The position numbers and the translations under genes are program-made. The notes beneath the pieces are model-generated. The model saw nothing but the letters and a program-made list of their open reading frames with translations, did not search any database and was not told the DNA's origin. This document shows positions 10,598-24,733 of a DNA stretch of 58,442 nucleotides, piece by piece; position 1 is the stretch's first letter; each line of letters opens with the position of its first letter. The DNA comes from Alphaproteobacteria bacterium (GTDB taxonomy: Bacteria > Pseudomonadota > Alphaproteobacteria > ATCC43930 > CGMCC-115725). The stretch covers positions 1-58,442 of the forward strand of contig JASHNY010000168.1 in the NCBI GenBank assembly GCA_030041385.1, written 5' to 3'.

Positions 10598-11188
10598 ATG
10601 CAAGTACCGTTGCACATCACGTTTCGCCACATGGACCCGTCACCTCCGCTGGAGGCGCAGATTCGTCGGCGCGCGGCCGAGCTGGAGCAGTTCTTCGACC
10701 GGATAACCGCCTGCCGCGTCACCCTGGAGTCACGGCACCGGCATGGCCGGCAGGGCAACCTGTTTGAGGTTCGCATCGATCTGGTGGTACCGGGCCGGGA
10801 GATCGTGGTCGGCCGCGACAGCGGTTTCAACCATGCGCATGAGGATGCACACGTGGCTGTGCGCGACGCTTTCGACGCGCTGCGTCGGCGACTTGAAGAC
10901 CATGTCCGCGACAGCCGGGGTCACGTGAAGCTGCACGCGGTGCCCGATCACGGGCGCATCGCGCGGCTGCTGCCGGACCGCGATGGCGGATTTATCGTCA
11001 GTTCCGACGGCCATGAGATCTATTTTCACCGCAACAGCGTTGTCGGCGGCACCTACGATGCGCTCGAGGTCGGTGCCGAGGTGCGGTTTGTCGCTCGCGA
11101 AGGCGAAAGTGACCAAGGGCCGCAGGCAAGTACGGTAACGCCGCTCGGCAAGCACCATTTGCCGCCAGACGAGACGACCCGGAGATAG
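10598..11188 (+). CDS. Ribosome hibernation factor (HPF/RaiA) fused to a cold-shock-like domain
   Basis: A 196-residue protein. Residues 1-105 are HPF/RaiA-like (MQVPLHITFRHMDPSPPLEA, helix ELEQFFDRI, AVRDAFDALRRRLEDH). This fold sits in the 30S decoding region and silences ribosomes. Residues about 115-180 resemble a CspA-type OB fold (GRIARLLPD, GGFIVSSDG, EIYFHRNSVV, GAEVRFVAREG, GPQAS). GAGGAG lies 7 bases before ATG 10598. A matched FNR-box promoter (10470-10509) is upstream and asdA follows after 26 bp. A role in ribosome storage during oxygen or energy limitation follows from the family; the part played by the nucleic-acid-binding tail is unknown. Confidence 0.88.
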   Translation: MQVPLHITFRHMDPSPPLEAQIRRRAAELEQFFDRITACRVTLESRHRHGRQGNLFEVRIDLVVPGREIVVGRDSGFNHAHEDAHVAVRDAFDALRRRLEDHVRDSRGHVKLHAVPDHGRIARLLPDRDGGFIVSSDGHEIYFHRNSVVGGTYDALEVGAEVRFVAREGESDQGPQASTVTPLGKHHLPPDETTRR

Positions 11189-11214: not shown

Positions 11215-12852
11215 ATGTCGACGGTCAGCTCCGTCCGGCAGGTGTCCGTGGACCGCAGCGAGCTCGATAAACTTGGCCGGCTGAGCCCTTTCGAGCTGAA
11301 AAACCGCCTGATCGAGCTCGCTGCGAGCCACGGCGAGCGCATGATGCTCAACGCCGGGCGCGGCAATCCAAACTTTTTTGCGACGGTTCCCCGTCACGCT
11401 TTTGTCGAACTCAGCCGCTTTGCGTTGCAAGAAGCCGAGCGATGCGATGACGCATTGCCAGCCGGGGTCGCGCCGATACCGCCGGCCGACGGCATCGCGG
11501 TGCGCTTCAGAACATTTTTGCAGGCGAGACCCACAGAACCCGCCATCTCGTTCCTCGCGGCCGGGCTAGCCTATGCCTGTAGGGCCTTTGGATTTGATGC
11601 CGACGAGTTTGTGCACGAGCTGTCGCTGGGTGTGCTCGGCTGTAACTATCCTGAACCTGTGCGAATCCTCAGACACGCCGGAACGATCGTCGCACGCTAC
11701 CTGCGTCAAGAAATGGGTGGGCCGACACCGGAGCTCGCTATCGATTTATGTGCCGTGGAAGGCGCCACGGCCGGGATTACCTATCTGTTCAATTCGCTGC
11801 GGGCGAACGGGGTGTTAGCGCCCGGCGATATGGTTGCTGTCGCGACCCCGATCTTCAGTCCGTATCTGGAAATTCCGCTGCTGAACGACTACCGCCTGAC
11901 ACCAATGACCATCGCTGCCGATCCTGAAGCCGGTTGGCAATACCCCGAGAGCGAACTGGTCAAACTGACTGATCCGAAGGTCAGAGCATTGCTGCTGGTC
12001 AATCCGGGAAACCCGACATCGGTGAAGATTGACCGCGCGGTGCTCTCCCGAATGGCGGAAATCATCCATACCCGGCGCCCGGATCTGATTGTTCTGTCCG
12101 ACGACGTGTATGCGACCCTCGCCGACGATTTCACGTCGCTGTTCGCGCTATGCCCGCGCAACACGGTCTTGATCTATTCATTCTCTAAGTACTTCGGCGC
12201 GACCGGTTGGCGCCTGGGCGCGGTCGCCATGGCGCACGACAATGTTATCGATGCGATGATCCGCTCGCGATCGCCGGACCGCCAACATGAGGTGGAAACG
12301 CGTTATGCATCGCTGGTTCCTGAACCGTCGCGTTTGAAGTTCATCGACCGGCTGATCGCCGATAGCCGGGCGGTAGCGCTCAATCACACCGCCGGCTTAT
12401 CGACGCCGCAGCAAGTACAGATGGCCCTGTTTGCCCTCTTCGGGCTGTTGGACGGCGAGCAGCACTATAAAAATGGCGTCAAGCGGCTGATTCGTGGCCG
12501 CTACCGCGCGCTGTATTCGGCCCTCGGGGTCGACGTGGCGGCAGACCCCAACAGCGTCTGCTATTATGCGCTGCTCGATCTTGAACGCCTCGGCAGCGAG
12601 CGCTATGGCCGGGGCTTTGTCGATTGGCTTCTTGCCCACAAGAACCCGCTCGAAATCCTCCTCCGCCTGGCTGATGAGGCCGGCGTCGTGCTATTGCCGG
12701 GCAAAGGCTTTGGCATGTCGCATCCATCGGCACGGGTATCGCTCGCCAACTTGGATGAAGGCGACTATGCGCGCATCGGCGGTATCCTCCGCACGATGAT
12801 CGAGGAATATGCGGTCGAGTATCGACGACAGGGGGCGCGCGATTGCCCCTAA
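11215..12852 (+). CDS. asdA: Aspartate 4-decarboxylase (aminotransferase fold)
   Basis: A 545-residue PLP enzyme of the bifunctional aspartate aminotransferase / L-aspartate beta-decarboxylase family (EC 4.1.1.12): L-Asp to L-Ala plus CO2. Markers are MLNAGRGNPNFFATVPR near the N-terminus, LLLVNPGNPTSVK, and SFSKYFGATGWRLG with the PLP Lys at 325. The length matches the 530-550 of AsdA and is well above ordinary aminotransferases (about 400). It follows hpf by 26 bp and so should share the FNR-box promoter. Beta-decarboxylation consumes a proton and yields alanine, a common product of oxygen-limited cells; that physiological link is inference. It converges on the acp gene with 27 bp between. 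Confidence 0.85.
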   Translation: MSTVSSVRQVSVDRSELDKLGRLSPFELKNRLIELAASHGERMMLNAGRGNPNFFATVPRHAFVELSRFALQEAERCDDALPAGVAPIPPADGIAVRFRTFLQARPTEPAISFLAAGLAYACRAFGFDADEFVHELSLGVLGCNYPEPVRILRHAGTIVARYLRQEMGGPTPELAIDLCAVEGATAGITYLFNSLRANGVLAPGDMVAVATPIFSPYLEIPLLNDYRLTPMTIAADPEAGWQYPESELVKLTDPKVRALLLVNPGNPTSVKIDRAVLSRMAEIIHTRRPDLIVLSDDVYATLADDFTSLFALCPRNTVLIYSFSKYFGATGWRLGAVAMAHDNVIDAMIRSRSPDRQHEVETRYASLVPEPSRLKFIDRLIADSRAVALNHTAGLSTPQQVQMALFALFGLLDGEQHYKNGVKRLIRGRYRALYSALGVDVAADPNSVCYYALLDLERLGSERYGRGFVDWLLAHKNPLEILLRLADEAGVVLLPGKGFGMSHPSARVSLANLDEGDYARIGGILRTMIEEYAVEYRRQGARDCP

Positions 12853-12879: not shown

Positions 12880-13125
12880 CTATCGTTGCTGGCCAGTGAA
12901 ATAAGCGCTGACGCCATTCAGCGTTCGGAACTTCGGATAGTCACTTTCGGGGATGTCGATGCCGCTGCGCTCATGCAGCGCGATGACGAAGTTCATGAAA
13001 TCCATCGAATCGAGGTCGAGCGCTTCGCGCAAGTCTTCGTCACCCCTTAGCGCAGCAAAATCGGCTTCCGGCGCGAGCGAAGTCAGGATCTCGATGATGG
13101 TCTGCTTATCGATCGGTTCGCTCAT
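12880..13125 (-). CDS. Acyl carrier protein-like protein
   Basis: An 81-residue ACP fold with the phosphopantetheine attachment motif LDLDSMDFMNFV (Ser 40). The usual helix II and III pattern follows (IALHERSGIDIPESDYPKF). Its start overlaps the end of the E2 gene by 4 bp, making it the last gene of acsA-pdhA-pdhB-pdhC-acp. An ACP encoded in a pyruvate dehydrogenase operon is unusual. It could be loaded by the AMP ligase at 19988-22792, or could carry a different acyl group; both are inference. Confidence 0.85.
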   Translation of the reverse strand: MSEPIDKQTIIEILTSLAPEADFAALRGDEDLREALDLDSMDFMNFVIALHERSGIDIPESDYPKFRTLNGVSAYFTGQQR

Positions 13126-14305
13126 AACTGCTCGGGCTCCTGCAACAACCGCTCGATCGCGTTCAACAGCAGCCCGCCGATGTGACCATCGCTCGCGCGA
13201 TGATCGGCAGCGAGGCTGACAGTCACGAGCGGACGGGGCTCAACACGGCTGTCGATGACCCATGGCCGAGTGACAATGGCCCCGAAGCCGATCAATGCCA
13301 CCTGGGGTGGATAGATGATTCCCATTACCGTCTCGGCGCCCCGCTCGCCAAGACTGGTGACCGTGGCGGTTGGAGAGGCGAGTTCCGAACTGCGCAGCCC
13401 GCCGGTTCGCGCGCGCTGGACGAGATCGCGCATGGCGGCCATCAATTCCGGTAACGGACGTTTGTCGGCATCCAGTATCGCGGGGGCAACCAAACCGCCG
13501 CCGCGCAGCGAAATCGCCCAGCCCATGTGAATCCCATCGCCTGGGCGAAACGCGCCGTCAACGTAGGTGCCATTGAGCTGAGGCACCTCGCGCAACCCCA
13601 GCGCCGCCGCTTTTAACAGCAAGACGGCGGGAAGCAGCCGGTTCGGCACGGGCTGCGCCGCATTAAAGGCTTCCAGCCAGGCGAGCGCCGGGCCGAGCTC
13701 GATTGTGTGGGCGAGATAGTAATGCGGAATCTCGCGCTTCGATCGGCCCATCGCGGCGGCGATCGCCTTGCGCATCTCGGAAACGTCAAATCCCTTGCGC
13801 CGCGGCGGGGCCATCGCGGGCGGCGGCGCGGCGGAAGGCGCAGCGGCGGCCTCGACATCCGCGACAGTGACTGCACCGTCGATACCTGTGCCCGGCAGCT
13901 TTGCCGCGTCGATCCCGAGCTCGGCAGCCCGCCGGCGCGCCGCCGGCGAAATCCTCACCCCTTGAGCGGCACGAACCGGCATCGCCGGCGGGAACCCAAC
14001 CGGTTGCGGCACTGCGATCGGAGGAGGAGGCGGTGCGGGCACGAACGGCGGTAGCGGCTGCGCAGGTGCTTCACCTGTCCCGTCGATACGGGCAATCAGG
14101 CTGCCGACGGGAACCTTGGTCCCGACCGGGATCACCAGTTCCGAGACGATCCCCTCGCTGAAAATCTCGACTTCGATCGCGCCCTTTTGGGTTTCGACAA
14201 CGGCGACGACATCGCCGCGCTTTACGCGATCGCCCGGTTTGATCAGCCACTCGACCAGCGTGCCCGCTTCCATGTCGGCGCCGAGCGCCGGCATCAGGAA
14301 GTCGC

Positions 14306-14309
<4 letters not shown>
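13122..14309 (-). CDS. pdhC: 2-oxo acid dehydrogenase E2 (dihydrolipoamide acyltransferase)
   Basis: A 395-residue protein. The lipoyl domain is at 1-78, with the lipoyl Lys 42 in [11 protein letters not shown] Pro/Ala-rich linker follows, then a peripheral-subunit-binding domain near 118-155 ([20 protein letters not shown]) and a catalytic core to the end, with DHRASDG carrying the active-site His. It forms the acyltransferase core of a pyruvate (or acetoin) dehydrogenase, passing the acyl group from lipoyl to CoA. It overlaps pdhB upstream and acp downstream by 4 bp each. No E3 gene is adjacent, so it would borrow an E3 from elsewhere. Substrate choice between pyruvate and acetoin cannot be fixed from sequence alone. 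Confidence 0.85.
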
Positions 14310-15291
<982 letters not shown>

Positions 15292-15295
<4 letters not shown>

Positions 15296-16278
15296 GCCGG
15301 CACCGCTTCCATTGTCACAAACCGCTCCAGCTCTTCCACCGGTTCGAGCGTGCCCGCCTCGGCAAAATCGACCGCCCGGTCGATTTCCGCATCCGCCTCG
15401 GTCTCGATCCGGTGAACCTCCACCGCGTCAATCAGCCCGTTCTGCACGAGCCAGCTCTGAAAGCGGGCGATGGGCCCCTTCCGACGCCAGGTCTCGACCT
15501 CATCCCTTGTGCGATAAAGCTGCGCATCGAACATCGAATGGGCGCGGAAGCGATAGGTGCGGCATTCGAGGAACTGCGGTCCGCCGCCCGCGCGGATCTG
15601 CTCGACCGCGCTGCGCGCCGCATTTTCCACCGCAACGACATCCATGCCATCGACACCCGTGCCGGTCATCCGGTAGCCGGCAGCCTTGCGCGCAAGCCCC
15701 GGCTCGGCCTCCGCGCGCTCCAATGCCATGCCCATCGCGTAGAGATTGTTCTCGCAAACGAACAGCACCGGCAGATGCCACAGCGAGGCGAGGTTCATGC
15801 TCTCGTGGAATTCGCCTTCATCGACCGCCCCATCGCCAAAGAAGCAGGCGGTGACGGCGTTGCGGCCCTGCATCTTGTCGCCGAGGGCAACACCCACTGC
15901 CAACGGCAGGCCGCCGCCGACAATGGCGTTGCCGCCATAGAACCGGGTCTTGCGGTCGAAGATGTGCATCGAGCCGCCGCGGCCACGGCAGCACCCCTCC
16001 TGTTTGCCGAGCATTTCGGCCATCAGCACGTCCATGCCGATGCCCCGGGCGATGGCCTGACCATGTTCGCGGTAGGTGGCGACCACGGCATCGTCCGCCG
16101 CCAGAGCCTCCATCACGCCGACCGATACCGCTTCTTCCCCATCGTAAAGGTGCAGGAAGCCGAGGATCTTCTGCGCCTGGTACAGCTCGACGCATTTCGA
16201 TTCGAAATGCCGGATGCGGATCATCTGGCGCAGCAGATGGCGCACATGGTCATGGCCAAGGTGCACCCGGGCCGTCAT
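15292..16278 (-). CDS. pdhA: Pyruvate/acetoin dehydrogenase E1 alpha subunit
   Basis: A 328-residue ThDP-binding E1 alpha. It contains [51 protein letters not shown], and the ThDP/Mg motif [17 protein letters not shown] ending in CENN. It pairs with the E1 beta encoded directly downstream. The ATG overlaps the acsA stop (ATGA). Expression from the acsA promoter with its FNR-type box implies a condition-specific 2-oxo acid dehydrogenase rather than the housekeeping complex. An AcoA (acetoin) identity is the main alternative. Confidence 0.87.
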
Positions 16279-18062
16279 CGCTCGTCGCTCTCCAGGCTGG
16301 AGATGTCGCCCTCAGGCAGGCCCAGTTCGCGCGCCTTGAGGAGCCGCCGCATGATCTTGCCGCTGCGCGTCTTCGGCAGATTGGCGCGGAAATCGATTTC
16401 CTTTGGCGCCACCGCGGCACCGAGATGCCGGCGTGCGTGACCCAGCAACTCCCGCCGCAGCCCTTCGGATTCCGCATATCCGGGCTTCAAGGCCACGAAG
16501 GCCTTCACGATCTCGCCGGCCATGGGATCGGGCTTGCCGATGACACCCGCTTCCGCCACCGCCGGGTGCTCCATCAGCGTACTTTCGACCTCGAACGGTC
16601 CGATCAGGTGACCCGACGACTTGATGACGTCATCGGCGCGGCCGACGAACCAGAAATAGCCATCCGCGTCGCGCTTGGCCAAATCCCCGGTCAAATACCA
16701 GGGGCCGACGAAGCATTTGCGGAAACGCTCTTCCTCGTGCAGATAACCGCGCATCATCGAAGGCCAGCCGGCCTTCAAGGCGAGTTCGCCCTGCACCATC
16801 GGCTCGTCGATCACGCGCACGCCGCCATCGGATGTTCGCTCGACGATCGCCGCGTCGATGCCCGGCAGCGGCAGCCCCATCGAGCCGGGCTTGACGGGCA
16901 GAGCCAGAAAATTGGCGATCATGATACCGCCGGTTTCGGTCTGCCACCAATTGTCGTGAAATGGCTGACCGAAGGCTTCGACGCCCCAGACGACCGCCTC
17001 AGGATTCAGCGGTTCGCCGACGCTTGCCATGAAACGCAGCGCGCCGAGGTCGTAACCGCGGACAGCCTCCGCGCCGAGCTTCATCATCATGCGAATGGCC
17101 GTCGGCGCGGTGTACCAGACCGTGACGCGCTCGGCGGCGAGCACGCCGTACCAGGTCTGGGCGTCGAACTCTTCCTCGACGACGAGGGTTGTGACGCCAT
17201 GCGTCAGCGGGGCGATGATGCCGTAGCTCGTGCCGGTGACCCATCCGGGGTCGGCGGTACACCAGAAGATGTCGTCGTCGTGCAGATCGAGCGCGTAAAG
17301 TCCGGTGACATGGTGCGTGACAACCGCTTCATGGACATGAATGGCGCCCTTGGGCCGCCCGGTGGTGCCGCTCGTGAAATGCAGCAGGGCCATGTCTTCC
17401 GGCCCGGTGGACGGAATGACAAACTCCTCGCTCGCCGCCATCATCAACGCCGACCACCGCACCGTACCGGCAATGGGCGGGCCGTCATCGATCAGGATCA
17501 CCTGTCCGAGATTTGGCAGCCTCGGACGCAAGGCTTCGACCTTGCGGCGGTAGAGCACCTCGGTCGTGACCAAGACCTTCCCGGCGCCGATGTCGAGCCG
17601 GGTGGCGATCGGCTCTGGGCCGAAAGCGGAGAACAACGGCGAGGCGACGCACTTCGCCTTCAGCGCGCCCAAGACGGCAATGTACAATTCGGGGACGCGG
17701 CCGAGCAGGACGAACACCGCCTCGCCAGCAGCGACACCCAGCCCGCTGAGCGCGTTCGCGAAGCGATTGGTGGCTCGCTGCAGATCGCGATAGGTCAGCT
17801 CCCGCCGCGCTCCGGCCTTGCCCAGCCAGCGCAGCGCGACCCGGTCGGCGCGTCGGCCCCGCGCATGACGGTCGATCGCCTCGTGCGCGATGTTCAGCCC
17901 CTGCCCGCCCGGCAGCCCATCGAGCATGGTTCGAGCCGACGACCAATCGAAATTGGCCCGCACGGCGGCGTAATCGGTCAGATTAGGCTGCCGCGAGAAC
18001 AGGGCACGGTCCTTCTCGATCACAGCCTGTCTAATGGGTCGACTGACGGTTGCGCTTTCCAT
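16275..18062 (-). CDS. acsA: Acetyl-CoA synthetase-like acyl-CoA ligase
   Basis: A 595-residue ANL-family ligase that activates acetate (or a short acyl acid) with ATP and CoA. It carries the P-loop [19 protein letters not shown], the adenylate motif [47 protein letters not shown], and [14 protein letters not shown] with the catalytic Lys that Pat-type acetylases modify. It heads a five-gene operon in which each junction is a 4-bp overlap. The FNR-type box at 18097-18110 is centred 41.5 bp from the ATG and no ribosome site precedes the ATG, which suggests a leaderless message. Confidence 0.87.
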
Positions 18063-18096: not shown

Positions 18097-18110
18097 TTGA
18101 CTTAGCTCAA
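18097..18110. promoter_or_regulatory. FNR/FixK-type box of the acs-pdh operon
   Basis: TTGACTTAGCTCAA, a TTGA-N6-TCAA dyad centred 41.5 bp from the acsA ATG (minus). A -10-like CAAAAT (18070-18075 on the complement) fits an activator at -41.5, with transcription starting at or near the ATG. Confidence 0.65.
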
Positions 18111-19932: not shown

Positions 19933-19946
19933 TTGACCCAGATCAT
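19933..19946. promoter_or_regulatory. FNR/FixK-type box in the polX divergent promoter
   Basis: TTGACCCAGATCAT, one base short of a perfect TTGA-N6-TCAA dyad, lies between polX (minus, 67 bp away) and the ACP-AMP ligase-PlsC gene (plus, 48 bp away). Confidence 0.55.
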
Positions 19947-19987: not shown

Positions 19988-22792
19988 ATGGACAGGACCA
20001 TGGACACGCCCGCGGTCGAGCTTGCTGCGGAGGAGGCGAAGGCGAGATTGCTCCGCCTCGTCGAAGACGTGGCCCGCGACCTCGACCCGTCTCGTTCGCC
20101 CGTCATATCGCTCGAAAGCCGCCTCGATCGCGATCTCGGGATCGATAGCATCGGCCGCGCAGAGCTGATCATCCGCATCGAAAACGCCTTCGACGTCAGC
20201 TTGCCGTCGCGGGTGCTGGCCGAAGCCGAGACGCCGCAGGACCTGCTGAGCGCGATCCTGCGCGGAGAGAAGCTGGCCGCGCCGCGCTCAATCCGCGCGG
20301 TACCTCAACCGAAGATTCCAGCCGCCGTCGCGGCTCCGGCGGAGGCCGCAACATTATGCGCCGTGCTGGATTGGCACGCCGACCGGCATCCCGATCGGCT
20401 GCACCTCATCCTCGAGGAAGGCGATGCAGGAGACATCCAGTTCACGTATCGCGCCCTCGCCGAACGCGCGCGCAATGCGGCTGCAGGGCTGCGAGAGCTG
20501 GGGATCGCTCCCGAGGATCGCGTGGCGATCATGCTGCCGACCAGCATGGATTTCTTTATCGCTTTCTTCGGCGCTCTCTATGCCGGCGCGATTCCGGTGC
20601 CGATCTATCCGCCGGCACGCGCCAGCCAGATCGAGGAACACTTGCGGCGCCAGGCAGGCATTCTGAACAATGCCGGCGCCAAGCAATTGGTGACATCTCG
20701 CGAGATGCGTGAAGCGGCAACGCTGCTCCGCTCGCTGGTCGACCACCTCGAAGGCGTAACCAGCGTTGCCGGCCTGCCGGCAGCTGCGGGCGGCCTGCCC
20801 CGCGTCGAAAATCCCGGTGCGACGGCACTCATCCAGTACACCTCCGGCAGCACCGGCGCGCCCAAGGGCGTCGTGCTGAGTCACGCCAATATCCTGGCCA
20901 ACATCCGCGCATTGGGGACGGCGATCGGCGCATCGTCGTCTGATACGTTTGTTTCGTGGCTGCCCGTCTACCACGATCTCGGCCTGATCGGCGCCTGGCT
21001 CGGCTGCCTTTACTATGGTGCCCAGCTCGTCATCATGCCGCCGCATCGCTTCCTGTTGCGGCCAGAGCGCTGGTTGTGGGCGATCCACCGCCACCGCGGA
21101 ACGTTGTCCGCGGCGCCCAATTTTGCGTTCGATCAGTGTGTCCGGCACATTGAGGACGCGGCGATCGATGGGCTGGACCTATCCTCGTTGCGGCTGGTAG
21201 CCAACGGCTCCGAGCCCGTCAGTGCTGTCACAATTCGCCGGTTCACCGGGCGTTTTGCGCGGTACGGGTTTCGTGCCGAGGCGATGGCGCCGGCCTATGG
21301 TCTGGCAGAGAACACAGTCGGTCTGACGCTGCCTCCCACAGGTCGCGGGCCGCTGGTCGATCGGATTGCGCGTCGCCGTCTCGTCGAGCAGGGCATTGCT
21401 CAGAGCGCGCGGGATCAAGAGCCGATGGCGGAGATTGTCTCATGCGGCTGTCCGCTGCCCGGGCATGAGGTCCGCGTGGTCGACGATACCGGCCACGAAC
21501 TTCCTGAGCGCGGCGAAGGGCGCATTCAGTTTCGCGGGCCTTCGGCAACAAGCGGATATTTCCGCGAACCGGCGAAGACCACCGAGCTGTTCGACGGCGA
21601 ATGGCTCGAGACCGGCGATCTCGGCTACATCGCCGGCGGGGAGCTTTATGTTACCGGCCGAACCAAAGACATCATCATCCGCGGCGGCCGGCATCTCCAT
21701 CCGAGCGAAGTCGAAGCAGCGGTTGCCAACGTTCCGGGGGTGGAGGAACGCGGCGTCGCGGCCTTTGGCACTCACGATCCCCAGACCGGGACCGAGCGGT
21801 TGGTGGTGGTGGTCGAGACCGCTCTGCCGCAAGACGACCAGCCGCGGTTACGAGACCTGATCGCAACCGCAACAATCGGGGTTCTCGACGCGCCGCCCGA
21901 AGAGATCGCTTTCGTGCCGCCGCACGCGCTGCCGAAGACAGCAAGCGGCAAATTGCGACGCAGCACCGCCCGTGCGCTCTACGAGACTGGACAGCTGGCC
22001 CAGCGTCGATCGTTGCGCCGGCAGATGATCGGCCTCGGTTTTGCCGCCACCACGCCGGTGCTGCGTCGGGCCGTCCGGGTAGCGGGTGCGCTCCTCTATG
22101 CGGGATATTGGTGGCTCGTCGTCGGGCTGGTGTTCGCGATCACCTGGCTGCTGGTGATGATTTTACCGCGCTCCGGCTGGCGCTGGGGAGCCGTGAGAAG
22201 CGCGGCGAGGCTGACGTTTCGGCTCACCGCAACGCCCTTCGAGGTCGAAAGCCGCGGCAAACTGCCGGCCAACGCGGTGATCGTCAGCAATCACGCAAGT
22301 TACATCGATGGCCTTGCGCTAGCCGCGGCGCTGCCCGGCGAACCCGCCTTCGTAGCCAAGCGCGAGCTCGTCCGCAAACCGCTCGCACGCTGGCCCCTCG
22401 AACGGCTGGGAACCCTGTTTGTCGAACGGGTCGACATCGAGCAGGAGATCGAAGACGTTCGGCATCTCGCGGAAGCCGCGCGGACCGCAAAACATATCGT
22501 GATCTTTCCGGAAGGCGGGTTCACTCGCGCGCCGGGGCTGATGCCGTTCAAGCTCGGTGCGTTTTCGGTTGCCGCGTCAGCCGGCCTCCAGGTTGTTCCG
22601 GTCGCCGTTCGGGGAACGCGTTCGATCCTGCGCGGCGATGAGTGGTTGCCCCGGCGCGGCAGCGTCCGGATAACCATCGGTGAAGCCATCGCACCGAAAG
22701 GGACATCGCTTGCCGAAGCAACCCGCCTGCGCGATGCCGCTCGTGCCGCCATCCTGGCCTGTTGTGGCGAGGCCGATCTTCAAATCAGATAA
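19988..22792 (+). CDS. ACP - fatty acyl-AMP ligase - PlsC acyltransferase fusion
   Basis: A 934-residue three-part enzyme. Residues about 15-92 are an acyl carrier domain (LGIDSIGRAELI, pantetheine Ser 54). Residues about 115-680 are an AMP-forming ligase of the fatty acyl-AMP ligase type (YTSGSTGAPKGVVLSH; SWLPVYHDLGLIGAWLG; YGLAENTVG; VTGRTKDIIIRGGRHLHPSE; TASGKLRRS). A membrane segment (about 698-728) precedes a PlsC domain with NHASYID (768-774) and FPEGG (840-844). It could activate a fatty acid, load it on its own ACP and transfer it to a lysophospholipid or glycerol-phosphate, like Aas but with a tethered carrier. ATG 20000 is an alternative start. Confidence 0.87.
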   Translation: MDRTMDTPAVELAAEEAKARLLRLVEDVARDLDPSRSPVISLESRLDRDLGIDSIGRAELIIRIENAFDVSLPSRVLAEAETPQDLLSAILRGEKLAAPRSIRAVPQPKIPAAVAAPAEAATLCAVLDWHADRHPDRLHLILEEGDAGDIQFTYRALAERARNAAAGLRELGIAPEDRVAIMLPTSMDFFIAFFGALYAGAIPVPIYPPARASQIEEHLRRQAGILNNAGAKQLVTSREMREAATLLRSLVDHLEGVTSVAGLPAAAGGLPRVENPGATALIQYTSGSTGAPKGVVLSHANILANIRALGTAIGASSSDTFVSWLPVYHDLGLIGAWLGCLYYGAQLVIMPPHRFLLRPERWLWAIHRHRGTLSAAPNFAFDQCVRHIEDAAIDGLDLSSLRLVANGSEPVSAVTIRRFTGRFARYGFRAEAMAPAYGLAENTVGLTLPPTGRGPLVDRIARRRLVEQGIAQSARDQEPMAEIVSCGCPLPGHEVRVVDDTGHELPERGEGRIQFRGPSATSGYFREPAKTTELFDGEWLETGDLGYIAGGELYVTGRTKDIIIRGGRHLHPSEVEAAVANVPGVEERGVAAFGTHDPQTGTERLVVVVETALPQDDQPRLRDLIATATIGVLDAPPEEIAFVPPHALPKTASGKLRRSTARALYETGQLAQRRSLRRQMIGLGFAATTPVLRRAVRVAGALLYAGYWWLVVGLVFAITWLLVMILPRSGWRWGAVRSAARLTFRLTATPFEVESRGKLPANAVIVSNHASYIDGLALAAALPGEPAFVAKRELVRKPLARWPLERLGTLFVERVDIEQEIEDVRHLAEAARTAKHIVIFPEGGFTRAPGLMPFKLGAFSVAASAGLQVVPVAVRGTRSILRGDEWLPRRGSVRITIGEAIAPKGTSLAEATRLRDAARAAILACCGEADLQIR

Positions 22793-22846: not shown

Positions 22847-24277
22847 TCAGCCTTTGATGCAGATCACCGGTTCGAGGGCCGCGACTTTGCGCGACAGGCC
22901 GGCGAGATGAGCCGCCTCGACCACGGCGGCGCTGTCCTTGTAGGCGCCGGGCGCCTCCTCGGCCACGCCGCGCATCGAGGGACTCTTGATGATGATGCCG
23001 CGCTTGCGCAATTCGTCGACGATCTGCCGGCCGTGCCATTGCCGCAGCGCCTGGTGCCGGCTCAGCTGGCGCCCGGCGCCGTGGCAGGATGAAGCGAAGG
23101 CATGCTCGGGACGCTCGGCCGCGCCGACCATGATCGCCGACATTGTCCCCATGCTGCCGCCGATAAAGACAGGCTGACCGGTGGCGGCGAAGGCCGGGGG
23201 TAACCCGGGGCGGCCGGCGCCAAAGGCGCGCGTCGCACCCTTGCGGTGCACGAAGAGGCGGCGCCGCTTGCCCGCGACTTCGTGCTCCTCCTCCTTGCAG
23301 GTGTTGTGCGACACGTCGAACAACACCGGCAACGTGATCTCGGGAAAAAAATGCGCAAAGACGCGGCGGGTCAGATAGGTGATGATCTGGCGGTTGGCGA
23401 GCGCGCAATTGATGCCGGCGCGCATCGCGCCGAGGTATCGCTGCCCCAGTTCCGATCGGATCGGCGCGCAGGCCAGTTCCAAATCCGGCAAGGTGATTCC
23501 ATGCGCCGGCGCCGCCAGCGCCATTTCGCGCAGAAAGTCGGTGCCGATCTGGTGGCCGAGCCCGCGCGAGCCGCAATGAATGCTCACGACGATATCGCCC
23601 GGCGCCAACCCGAAGCTTGTGGCCACGGCATTGTCGGAGATCGCGGTGACCTGCTGCACCTCGAGATAATGGTTACCCGAGCCCAACGTGCCCATTTCAT
23701 CGCGCTGGCGATGCCTCGCCCGCTGCGAGACGGCGTCGGTCGATGCGCCGGAGATCCGGCCGCCTTCTTCGATATGGTCCAGATCTTCCGCGCGACCATA
23801 TCCTTGCTCGACGGCCCACCCGGCGCCGCCGACGAGCATGCGATCCATCTCGATCTCGTCGAGGACAATCCTGCCCGTGCTGCCCAAGCCGGCCGGGATC
23901 GTACGAGAGAGGCTGTGGGCGAGCTCTTCCTTGCACGGTTCGAGGTCGGCGCGCTTCAGGCCGGTAAGCAATGTGCGCACCCCGCAGGAAATGTCGAAAC
24001 CGACACCACCAGCCGAGATAATGCCGCCCTCGTCCGGATCGAAGGCCGCAACCCCGCCGATCGGAAAGCCATAACCCCAATGAGCGTCCGGCATGGCGTA
24101 GGCCGCATCGACGATGCCGGGGAGACAGGCAACATTCGCGATCTGCTCCAGGACCTTGTCGTCCATCTCGGCGATCAGCTTTTCGCTGGCGTAGAGCACC
24201 GCGGGGACGCGCATCGCGTCGTGCGGTTCAAGGCGCCACTCGGTTGGGGAGATGCGCTGCAGGCGGGAGAGGTCCAT
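22847..24277 (-). CDS. rtcB: RtcB RNA ligase
   Basis: A 476-residue GTP-dependent ligase that joins 2',3'-cyclic phosphate or 3'-phosphate RNA ends to 5'-OH ends. Metal and guanylylation residues are all present and nearly co-numbered with the archaeal enzyme: Asp 95 and Cys 98 in GFDISCGVR, Asn 202 and His 203 in GSGNHYLE, His 234 in SIHCGSRG, His 324 in DVSHNTCK, and the GMP-accepting His 399 in SSCHGAGR. It should therefore be active. It lies 15 bp after its activator archease in the same operon. It repairs tRNA and rRNA cut by stress nucleases; the substrate here is unknown. Confidence 0.93.
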   Translation of the reverse strand: MDLSRLQRISPTEWRLEPHDAMRVPAVLYASEKLIAEMDDKVLEQIANVACLPGIVDAAYAMPDAHWGYGFPIGGVAAFDPDEGGIISAGGVGFDISCGVRTLLTGLKRADLEPCKEELAHSLSRTIPAGLGSTGRIVLDEIEMDRMLVGGAGWAVEQGYGRAEDLDHIEEGGRISGASTDAVSQRARHRQRDEMGTLGSGNHYLEVQQVTAISDNAVATSFGLAPGDIVVSIHCGSRGLGHQIGTDFLREMALAAPAHGITLPDLELACAPIRSELGQRYLGAMRAGINCALANRQIITYLTRRVFAHFFPEITLPVLFDVSHNTCKEEEHEVAGKRRRLFVHRKGATRAFGAGRPGLPPAFAATGQPVFIGGSMGTMSAIMVGAAERPEHAFASSCHGAGRQLSRHQALRQWHGRQIVDELRKRGIIIKSPSMRGVAEEAPGAYKDSAAVVEAAHLAGLSRKVAALEPVICIKG

Positions 24278-24292
24278 TGCGTACCCCCTCGC

Positions 24293-24733
24293 TCACACAT
24301 CGACGACGCATTGGGCGAGCCAGGCGCCTTTGTCGTTGAGTTCGACCTTGAGCGCGGTCAGCGTGGCACCCTTTGGTTCGACCGCGGGCGCGTGGCGCGC
24401 GCGATCGATGGGTTCCCCCCAAGCTCGCCCACGCAAGCGATGTTCGTCGATAGCCACGGCGAAACGACCGAAGACCAGTCGCCGCACGGCCATCTCGTAG
24501 ATCAGCGCGTTCAGCCAGTCGAGCAGGAGAAACTCGTCGTTCGGCGCCTCACACGTGATTGCAGTCTGTGTCTGCGCCGCGATCCGAGCGGGATCGGTGA
24601 CCGCCATCGTCAGCGCCAGCGCGGCCTGCTCGAAGGCGGCGGCGCATGTCGGGCCGACACCGCGAACGCCGATGTCCGCGCCATGCGCGAACAGCTCGGC
24701 GCGGGGCTCGATCGAGGCGGGCGCCATTCCCAC
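24293..24733 (-). CDS. Archease (RtcB activator)
   Basis: A 146-residue archease-family protein. It has the N-terminal ELFAHGADIGVRGVG (family HTADIG motif with metal-binding Asp), LLLDWLNALIYEM, and the C-terminal ATLTALKVELNDKG ending CVVDV. Archease speeds RtcB guanylylation and multiple turnover, and here it directly precedes rtcB, 15 bp away. Its start is 7 bp after the restored stop of the infA-like gene. His is kept, but the Thr of HTADIG is Gly here; this is a common-position variation, not an obvious loss. Confidence 0.85.
   Translation of the reverse strand: MGMAPASIEPRAELFAHGADIGVRGVGPTCAAAFEQAALALTMAVTDPARIAAQTQTAITCEAPNDEFLLLDWLNALIYEMAVRRLVFGRFAVAIDEHRLRGRAWGEPIDRARHAPAVEPKGATLTALKVELNDKGAWLAQCVVDV

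Follow-up and report, generated by a model that had tools for sequence, protein, structure and literature searches.

What would a single bacterial polypeptide that carries an acyl carrier, an acyl-AMP ligase and a PlsC-type acyltransferase accomplish for the cell, and is its work tied to life without oxygen? The question is raised by one gene in the window, which is the whole stretch of DNA analysed here (58,442 nucleotides from an Alphaproteobacteria bacterium). The original prediction described this gene as a fusion, divergent from polX across an FNR-type box, that may recycle or store fatty acids when beta-oxidation stops without oxygen. The reading that we prefer, and to which we give about an even chance of being right, is that the fusion is a self-contained Aas-like acyl salvage enzyme that charges its own acyl carrier protein (ACP) with free fatty acid, re-acylates lysolipids and is expressed at low oxygen. 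The gene and its elements are as follows.

19988..22792, + strand: ACP-FAAL-PlsC fusion gene (934 aa and a stop; ORF intact, no internal stop)
20054..20254, + strand: acyl carrier domain, residues 23-89 (Pfam PP-binding)
20147..20149, + strand: codon of Ser54, the predicted phosphopantetheine site (invariant in 28/28 aligned proteins)
20366..21952, + strand: predicted fatty acyl-AMP ligase (FAAL) domain, residues 127-655 (Pfam; Lys655 invariant in 28/28)
21311..21445, + strand: segment with the FAAL-specific insertion (five CoA ligases are shorter here by about 27 residues)
22109..22165, + strand: hydrophobic segment of membrane type, residues 708-726 (part of the helix predicted at 676-725)
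22241..22609, + strand: PlsC-type acyltransferase domain, residues 752-874 (Pfam, sequence search and structure match)
22289..22309, + strand: NHASYID, the HX4D catalytic motif with H769 and D774 (alignment)
22511..22528, + strand: EGGFTR, a motif III that lacks the arginine of EGTR (alignment)

Systematic domain analysis of the encoded protein gave four Pfam domains above their curated cut-offs, namely PP-binding (residues 23-89, E 2.5e-9), AMP-binding (127-525, E 8.7e-80), AMP-binding_C (574-655, E 2.9e-7) and Acyltransferase (752-874, E 8.6e-27). The coordinates, the domain order and the carrier serine of the original prediction are thus correct, the ORF spanning exactly 19988-22792 on the forward strand, and with the catalytic residues intact the three predicted activities would indeed reside in one chain. 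The membrane segment that had been placed ahead of the acyltransferase is likewise seen, as residues 708-726 are the most hydrophobic segment of the protein and lie directly N-terminal to that domain. The full-length model (mean pLDDT 82) predicts the helix at 676-725, and the mutual placement of the domains in it is uncertain because its pTM is 0.66.

Relatives were found at every taxonomic level searched: in 5/39 genomes at family level, 4/43 at order level, at least 19/385 at class level and at least 6/398 at phylum level, the own genome included and the latter two counts scoring two candidates per genome. The G023 match from the family-level search spans the ligase only (118-671). Ten records of plasmids or megaplasmids carry the fusion as well, three each from Cupriavidus and Paraburkholderia, two from Sinorhizobium and one each from Methylobacterium and Photobacterium; in these it is mostly annotated as 'AMP-binding protein'. 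A scan of viral contigs returned 10 pattern matches with zero relatives of the fusion among them, and a scan of genome contigs confirmed four loci, all of them partial matches at 21-36%. The own genome holds a second FAAL-like match without a PlsC part (G000:C64:3809-5530, L002), 39% identical over residues 113-671.

Besides the window, 33 loci were studied, comprising seven of the ten plasmid records and 26 genome stretches, and 27 of them contain the ORF in full length (930 aa or more), with alpha-, beta- and gammaproteobacteria among the hosts. These 27 proteins and the window protein constitute the alignment of 28. The six loci excluded from it reach contig ends (L049, L065, L072), are devoid of the PlsC part (L066, G403:C1), are split in two (L067, G325:C15) or, in the S. 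fredii plasmid (L021), match from residue 346 onwards with no matching ACP or ligase start. It can be seen from the alignment that 107 of the 934 positions are invariant, including D53, S54, K655, H769, D774 and E842. Against the nearest relative (L047, 72% identical) dN is 0.21 and dS 1.17, giving a dN/dS of about 0.18 overall and of about 0.22, 0.14 and 0.16 for the ACP, FAAL and PlsC domains, respectively; purifying selection acts on all three. Since the full-length chain recurs in 27 loci, with dN of 0.21 against dS of 1.17, the fusion is not a chance joining.

The carrier serine, Ser54, lies in the motif LGIDSIGRAEL, of which D53 and S54 are invariant in 28/28, while the P-loop of the ligase (YTSGSTGxPKG) is nearly invariant and its catalytic K655 is unchanged in all 28 proteins. 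By sequence comparison the ligase groups with the FAALs, apart from the CoA ligases. Its top PDB matches are FAALs (3pbk, 3kxw, FadD32, FadD23 and FadD28, at least 174 bits), with the first 4-coumarate CoA ligase below them at 138 bits; ligase domains of polyketide/peptide synthases are also among the best matches, and some of the matched chains were labelled 'acyl-CoA synthase' by their depositors. The passages of PMC8460268 that deal with EcFAAL ascribe its exclusion of CoA to W224, M231, F279, a short FAAL-specific helix, a proline-lined entry and the insertion. Transferred to fusion numbering through the 3pbk alignment, the three residues correspond to W324, position 331 and F379, of which W324 and F379 are present in 28/28, and Met occupies 331 in 26/28, with Leu in the window protein and in L047. 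The spacing from the A5 motif to GxPLPG is 57-58 residues in five fusion members versus 31 in five control CoA ligases. Owing to these hallmarks, loading of ACP rather than of CoA is predicted, and a FAAL-ACP fusion as such is already known (PMC11837247, in the part bearing on it).

The transferase is predicted to adopt the PlsC fold. A sequence search with residues 690-934 gave 5kym (T. maritima PlsC, 5e-17) as its sole match, and a model of residues 676-934 based on 22 sequences (pLDDT 87) matched the same structure in Foldseek (E 2e-12) and in VIA (Z 23.9, 225 residues, 2.6 A). The VIA runner-up of the model was human GPAT1 (Z 14.5), and PatA scored about 10, in a list that displays the PlsC superfamily and in which the absence of other families carries no meaning. 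The HX4D residues H769 and D774 and the motif III glutamate E842, which are signatures of the PlsC (LPLAT) superfamily, are invariant in 28/28. Motif III is otherwise altered: EGTR is found in 0/28 of the fusion proteins, the pattern being of EGTxxR type with the arginine position replaced (20 proteins have F there, six L, one V and one A), and the arginine two positions beyond that site is retained in 26/28. In the separate PlsC-like protein of the own genome the motif is QGTR, with the arginine retained, and in two LplT-Aas proteins of relatives it is EGRLT, with Leu at the arginine position. The EGTR arginine of T. maritima PlsC is R159, which we take to bind phosphate; the lysine equivalent to K105 of that enzyme, presumably a functional residue as well, is present in 27/28. 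By this signature the fusion proteins depart from PlsC proper, the LPA acyltransferases (EGTR in 0/28).

Judged by alignment, motif III likens the transferase to Aas in this respect. Because the EGTR arginine is absent, as it is in Aas, a lysophospholipid acceptor is proposed; this single motif, the main ground for the proposal, tentatively points to an acceptor of lysophospholipid type rather than to glycerol-3-phosphate or LPA. For the same reason, recycling is preferred over storage as the better fitting half of the originally predicted 'recycle or store'.

Two other acceptors have to be weighed against this one. The domain could belong to an accessory LPA acyltransferase that draws on acyl-ACP produced in cis and builds salvaged or unusual fatty acids into phosphatidic acid, and it is true that the nearest solved fold by both sequence and structure, 5kym, is an LPA acyltransferase and that the K105-equivalent lysine persists in all but one of the 28 proteins. 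However, the arginine of EGTR is replaced in every one of them and a QGTR PlsC-like protein is already encoded separately in the own genome, which makes us regard this alternative as unlikely. A small likelihood also attaches to a non-phospholipid acceptor, be it an aminolipid, a glycolipid or another hydroxylated lipid, as in enzymes of the OlsA/SalA or PatA type. Such enzymes belong to the LPLAT superfamily according to the relevant passages of PMC11631085, PatA is among the fold matches of the model and motif III is distinctive, whereas 5kym is by far the best of those modelled matches and the scan of neighbouring genes revealed no recognisable aminolipid gene. A lysophospholipid acceptor for a salvage enzyme remains our preferred reading.

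The question of oxygen has to be approached through the surroundings of the gene, in which the following features are of importance.

19933..19946, + strand: FNR/FixK-type box TTGACCCAGATCAT, one mismatch, between polX and the fusion gene
18154..about 19872, - strand: polX, the divergent neighbour (probable start at GTG 19872)
13122..18062, - strand: acsA and the genes of pyruvate dehydrogenase (PDH) E1 alpha, E1 beta and E2 (Pfam/NCBIfam)
22847..24733, - strand: rtcB and archease, the two genes of an RNA ligase pair, within the box-rich island

The divergent arrangement of polX and the fusion gene is as had been described. A longer mechanical polX ORF would overlap the fusion gene; its first 100 codons were rejected, there being no domain before residue 107. 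The expected FNR-type box does lie between the two genes, 42-55 bp ahead of the fusion ATG, but it departs from TTGAYN4RTCAA by one mismatch, and no box was found upstream of the fusion in L047, so that this claim stands in part. A single box of this kind says little when taken by itself; the window as a whole contains 20 boxes within one mismatch (2.26 expected) and seven perfect ones (0.08 expected), the latter at 1287, 2905, 6008, 9196, 10470, 25432 and 30887, all within 1287-30900. On account of these seven, the left half of the window has the look of a single island under FNR/FixK control, as far as sequence can tell. A one-mismatch box at 18097 is 35 bp ahead of acsA. Seven Crp/Fnr-family matches over cut-off are encoded in the own genome, by a family count that was used instead of regex scans, which missed most of these proteins; a promoter scan gave 0 sites versus 0.4 expected.

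Among the full-length relatives, a box with at most one mismatch occurs in the 350 bp upstream in 7/27 (0.5 expected), compared to 3/164 for tiles inside genes, and was not found in that region in the other 20. Perfect boxes near the fusion start are seen in four of the 27 (L017, L020, L052 and L060). On a larger scale, 40 perfect boxes were counted over the 562,521 bases of the fusion loci (7.1 per 100 kb) and 4 over 527,425 bases of controls from the same set of genomes and records (0.76 per 100 kb), a density about nine times higher around the fusion gene; the controls were chosen non-randomly, for the most part on contigs or records that appear in the universal stress protein search.

Several neighbours in the window recur beside the fusion elsewhere: acsA with PDH genes in L051, L060 and L019 and PDH alone in L023, rtcB with archease in L069, polX in L047, L071 and L021, GYD in L021, L022 and L023, and a metallophosphatase with CarS in L017. 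Relatives of window neighbours, one or more per locus, are present in 11/33 fusion loci versus 0/27 control stretches at the same thresholds, the clustering of neighbours being based on a simple ORF caller. Universal stress proteins were seen no more than 10 kb from the fusion in at least 7 of the 29 genomes and records (W03-W07, G719 and G224, read by hand); in the own genome, two of its three universal stress proteins are among the matches listed, and both are off the window contig. A FadD-type CoA ligase gene is directly upstream of the fusion in two Cupriavidus and one Paraburkholderia, a point in favour of the salvage reading. A beta-ketothiolase gene is directly upstream in L048, a MlaC-like gene follows in L052, and some fusion loci sit among housekeeping-type genes.

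The island of the window also encodes BON and CBS-DUF2267 proteins, a glucodextranase-type GH15, an RpoH-like sigma factor, an HPF-cold-shock fusion, aspartate 4-decarboxylase, PDH-acsA, GYD and a copper-type P-ATPase. At 10598-11188 (+), an S30AE domain (ribosome hibernation-type) and a cold-shock domain are combined in a single 196 aa protein, relatives of which occur near the fusion in L051 and L069. In L060, an MFS transporter gene (11372-12745, Atg22-like/MFS_1) starts 2 bases past the fusion gene; as a candidate LplT it was rejected, NCBIfam assigning it to other transporters. No LplT-family flippase was seen adjoining the fusion, the L060 gene being the one adjacent MFS gene that was checked; this counts against the salvage reading.

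These observations bear on an alternative that is compatible with any acceptor, namely that the fusion serves general lipid metabolism with no oxygen tie and that its FNR-rich settings are incidental. It is favoured by the 22 of 33 loci that have no window neighbour in common, by the 20 upstream regions of 27 without a box and by the loci amid housekeeping-type genes; against it stand the shared neighbours that one third of the fusion loci and none of the controls possess, the roughly ninefold box density and the perfect boxes near the start in four relatives, and on balance we find it doubtful. The hypoxia idea of the original prediction is accordingly upheld in part, by the box-rich surroundings of the window and of many relatives' loci, and weakened by the imperfect box of the gene itself and the relatives that have none. 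Since two thirds of the loci share no neighbours, the low-oxygen link is not valid family-wide.

In the preferred reading of an Aas-like salvage enzyme, the FAAL domain would use ATP to convert a free fatty acid to acyl-AMP, the acyl group would pass to the phosphopantetheine arm on Ser54 of the same chain, as we presume, or of a partner chain, and the membrane-bound PlsC-type domain would then transfer it onto what is probably a lysophospholipid, the reactions presumably following in this order. Expression may be brought about at low oxygen by an FNR/FixK-type regulator, within an anoxia-survival gene island, and the role of the enzyme could be to hold fatty acids in membrane lipid while their oxidation is impossible. 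As the carrier is captive, the acid would be kept from CoA and so from beta-oxidation. We further suggest, with more reserve, that the fusion offers fatty acids a route back to the membrane in addition to Aas and the acyl-phosphate route, that by using its own covalently attached ACP it leaves the CoA and free ACP pools untouched, and that it spreads among proteobacteria as the lipid-repair component of FNR/FixK anoxia-survival islands. If all this is true, a set of proteobacteria possesses a CoA-independent fatty acid salvage enzyme bearing a captive carrier, FAALs gain a function beyond natural-product pathways, and lipid repair joins the roles of anoxia-survival gene islands.

The architecture itself is already in print. 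One sentence in eLife 2021 (PMC8460268) mentions that lysophospholipid acyltransferases occur fused to a few FAAL-like domains of bacteria, apparently the same class as the window protein, and gives no function; the passages of that paper on such fusions name no members and offer neither a motif analysis nor the gene context. No published function for a FAAL-acyltransferase fusion was found in the portions of the literature searched, whose scope left most subscription journals outside. With regard to gene context, the lxa low-oxygen locus of Burkholderia, which is treated in parts of PMC6127331, PMC3759415, PMC9104464 and PMC9733578, resembles the S. fredii island (L021) in its universal stress proteins, Hsp20, BON, FtsH, nicotinate phosphoribosyltransferase and CRP/FNR regulators. 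The fusion was rejected as a published lxa gene, Table 2 of PMC4981469 containing no acyl-AMP ligase/acyltransferase product, a point against the preferred reading.

With EcFAAL (3pbk), LpFAAL (3kxw) and FadD32, its best sequence matches, the fusion has the CoA-blocking residues and the insertion in common; known FAALs load polyketide/peptide synthases, whereas in the fusion a lipid acyltransferase comes next and PKS/NRPS genes were not recognised among the neighbouring genes that were scanned. With PlsC (5kym) it shares the predicted fold, the HX4D motif and motif II, and it differs in that PlsC is a standalone protein with the motif III arginine present, while the acyl donor of the fusion would be made in cis. 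Membership of the LplT-Aas family was rejected, since the NCBIfam scores are far under the cut-offs (PRK08633, 192.8 of 1221 bits; PRK06814, 153.3 of 1349), and a search of the own genome at E 1e-150 returned no LplT-Aas, which we count in favour of the preferred reading.

Aas nevertheless offers the closest parallel to the route proposed here. The relevant passages of PMC11416262 describe E. coli Aas as a transferase (1-203) followed by a synthetase (204-719) that acylates lysophospholipids, free fatty acid, ATP and ACP yielding acyl-ACP, which a PlsC-superfamily domain uses on the lysophospholipid. Aas and LplT-Aas share with the fusion, whose activity is predicted from sequence, the presence of ligase and transferase in one chain and a motif III without the EGTR arginine. 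They differ from it in the order of the domains, which is the reverse (transferase first in E. coli Aas), and in the use of free ACP where the fusion has a built-in carrier; the fusion in turn is distinguished from Aas by its FAAL-family ligase with the insertion and by the membrane segment ahead of its transferase.
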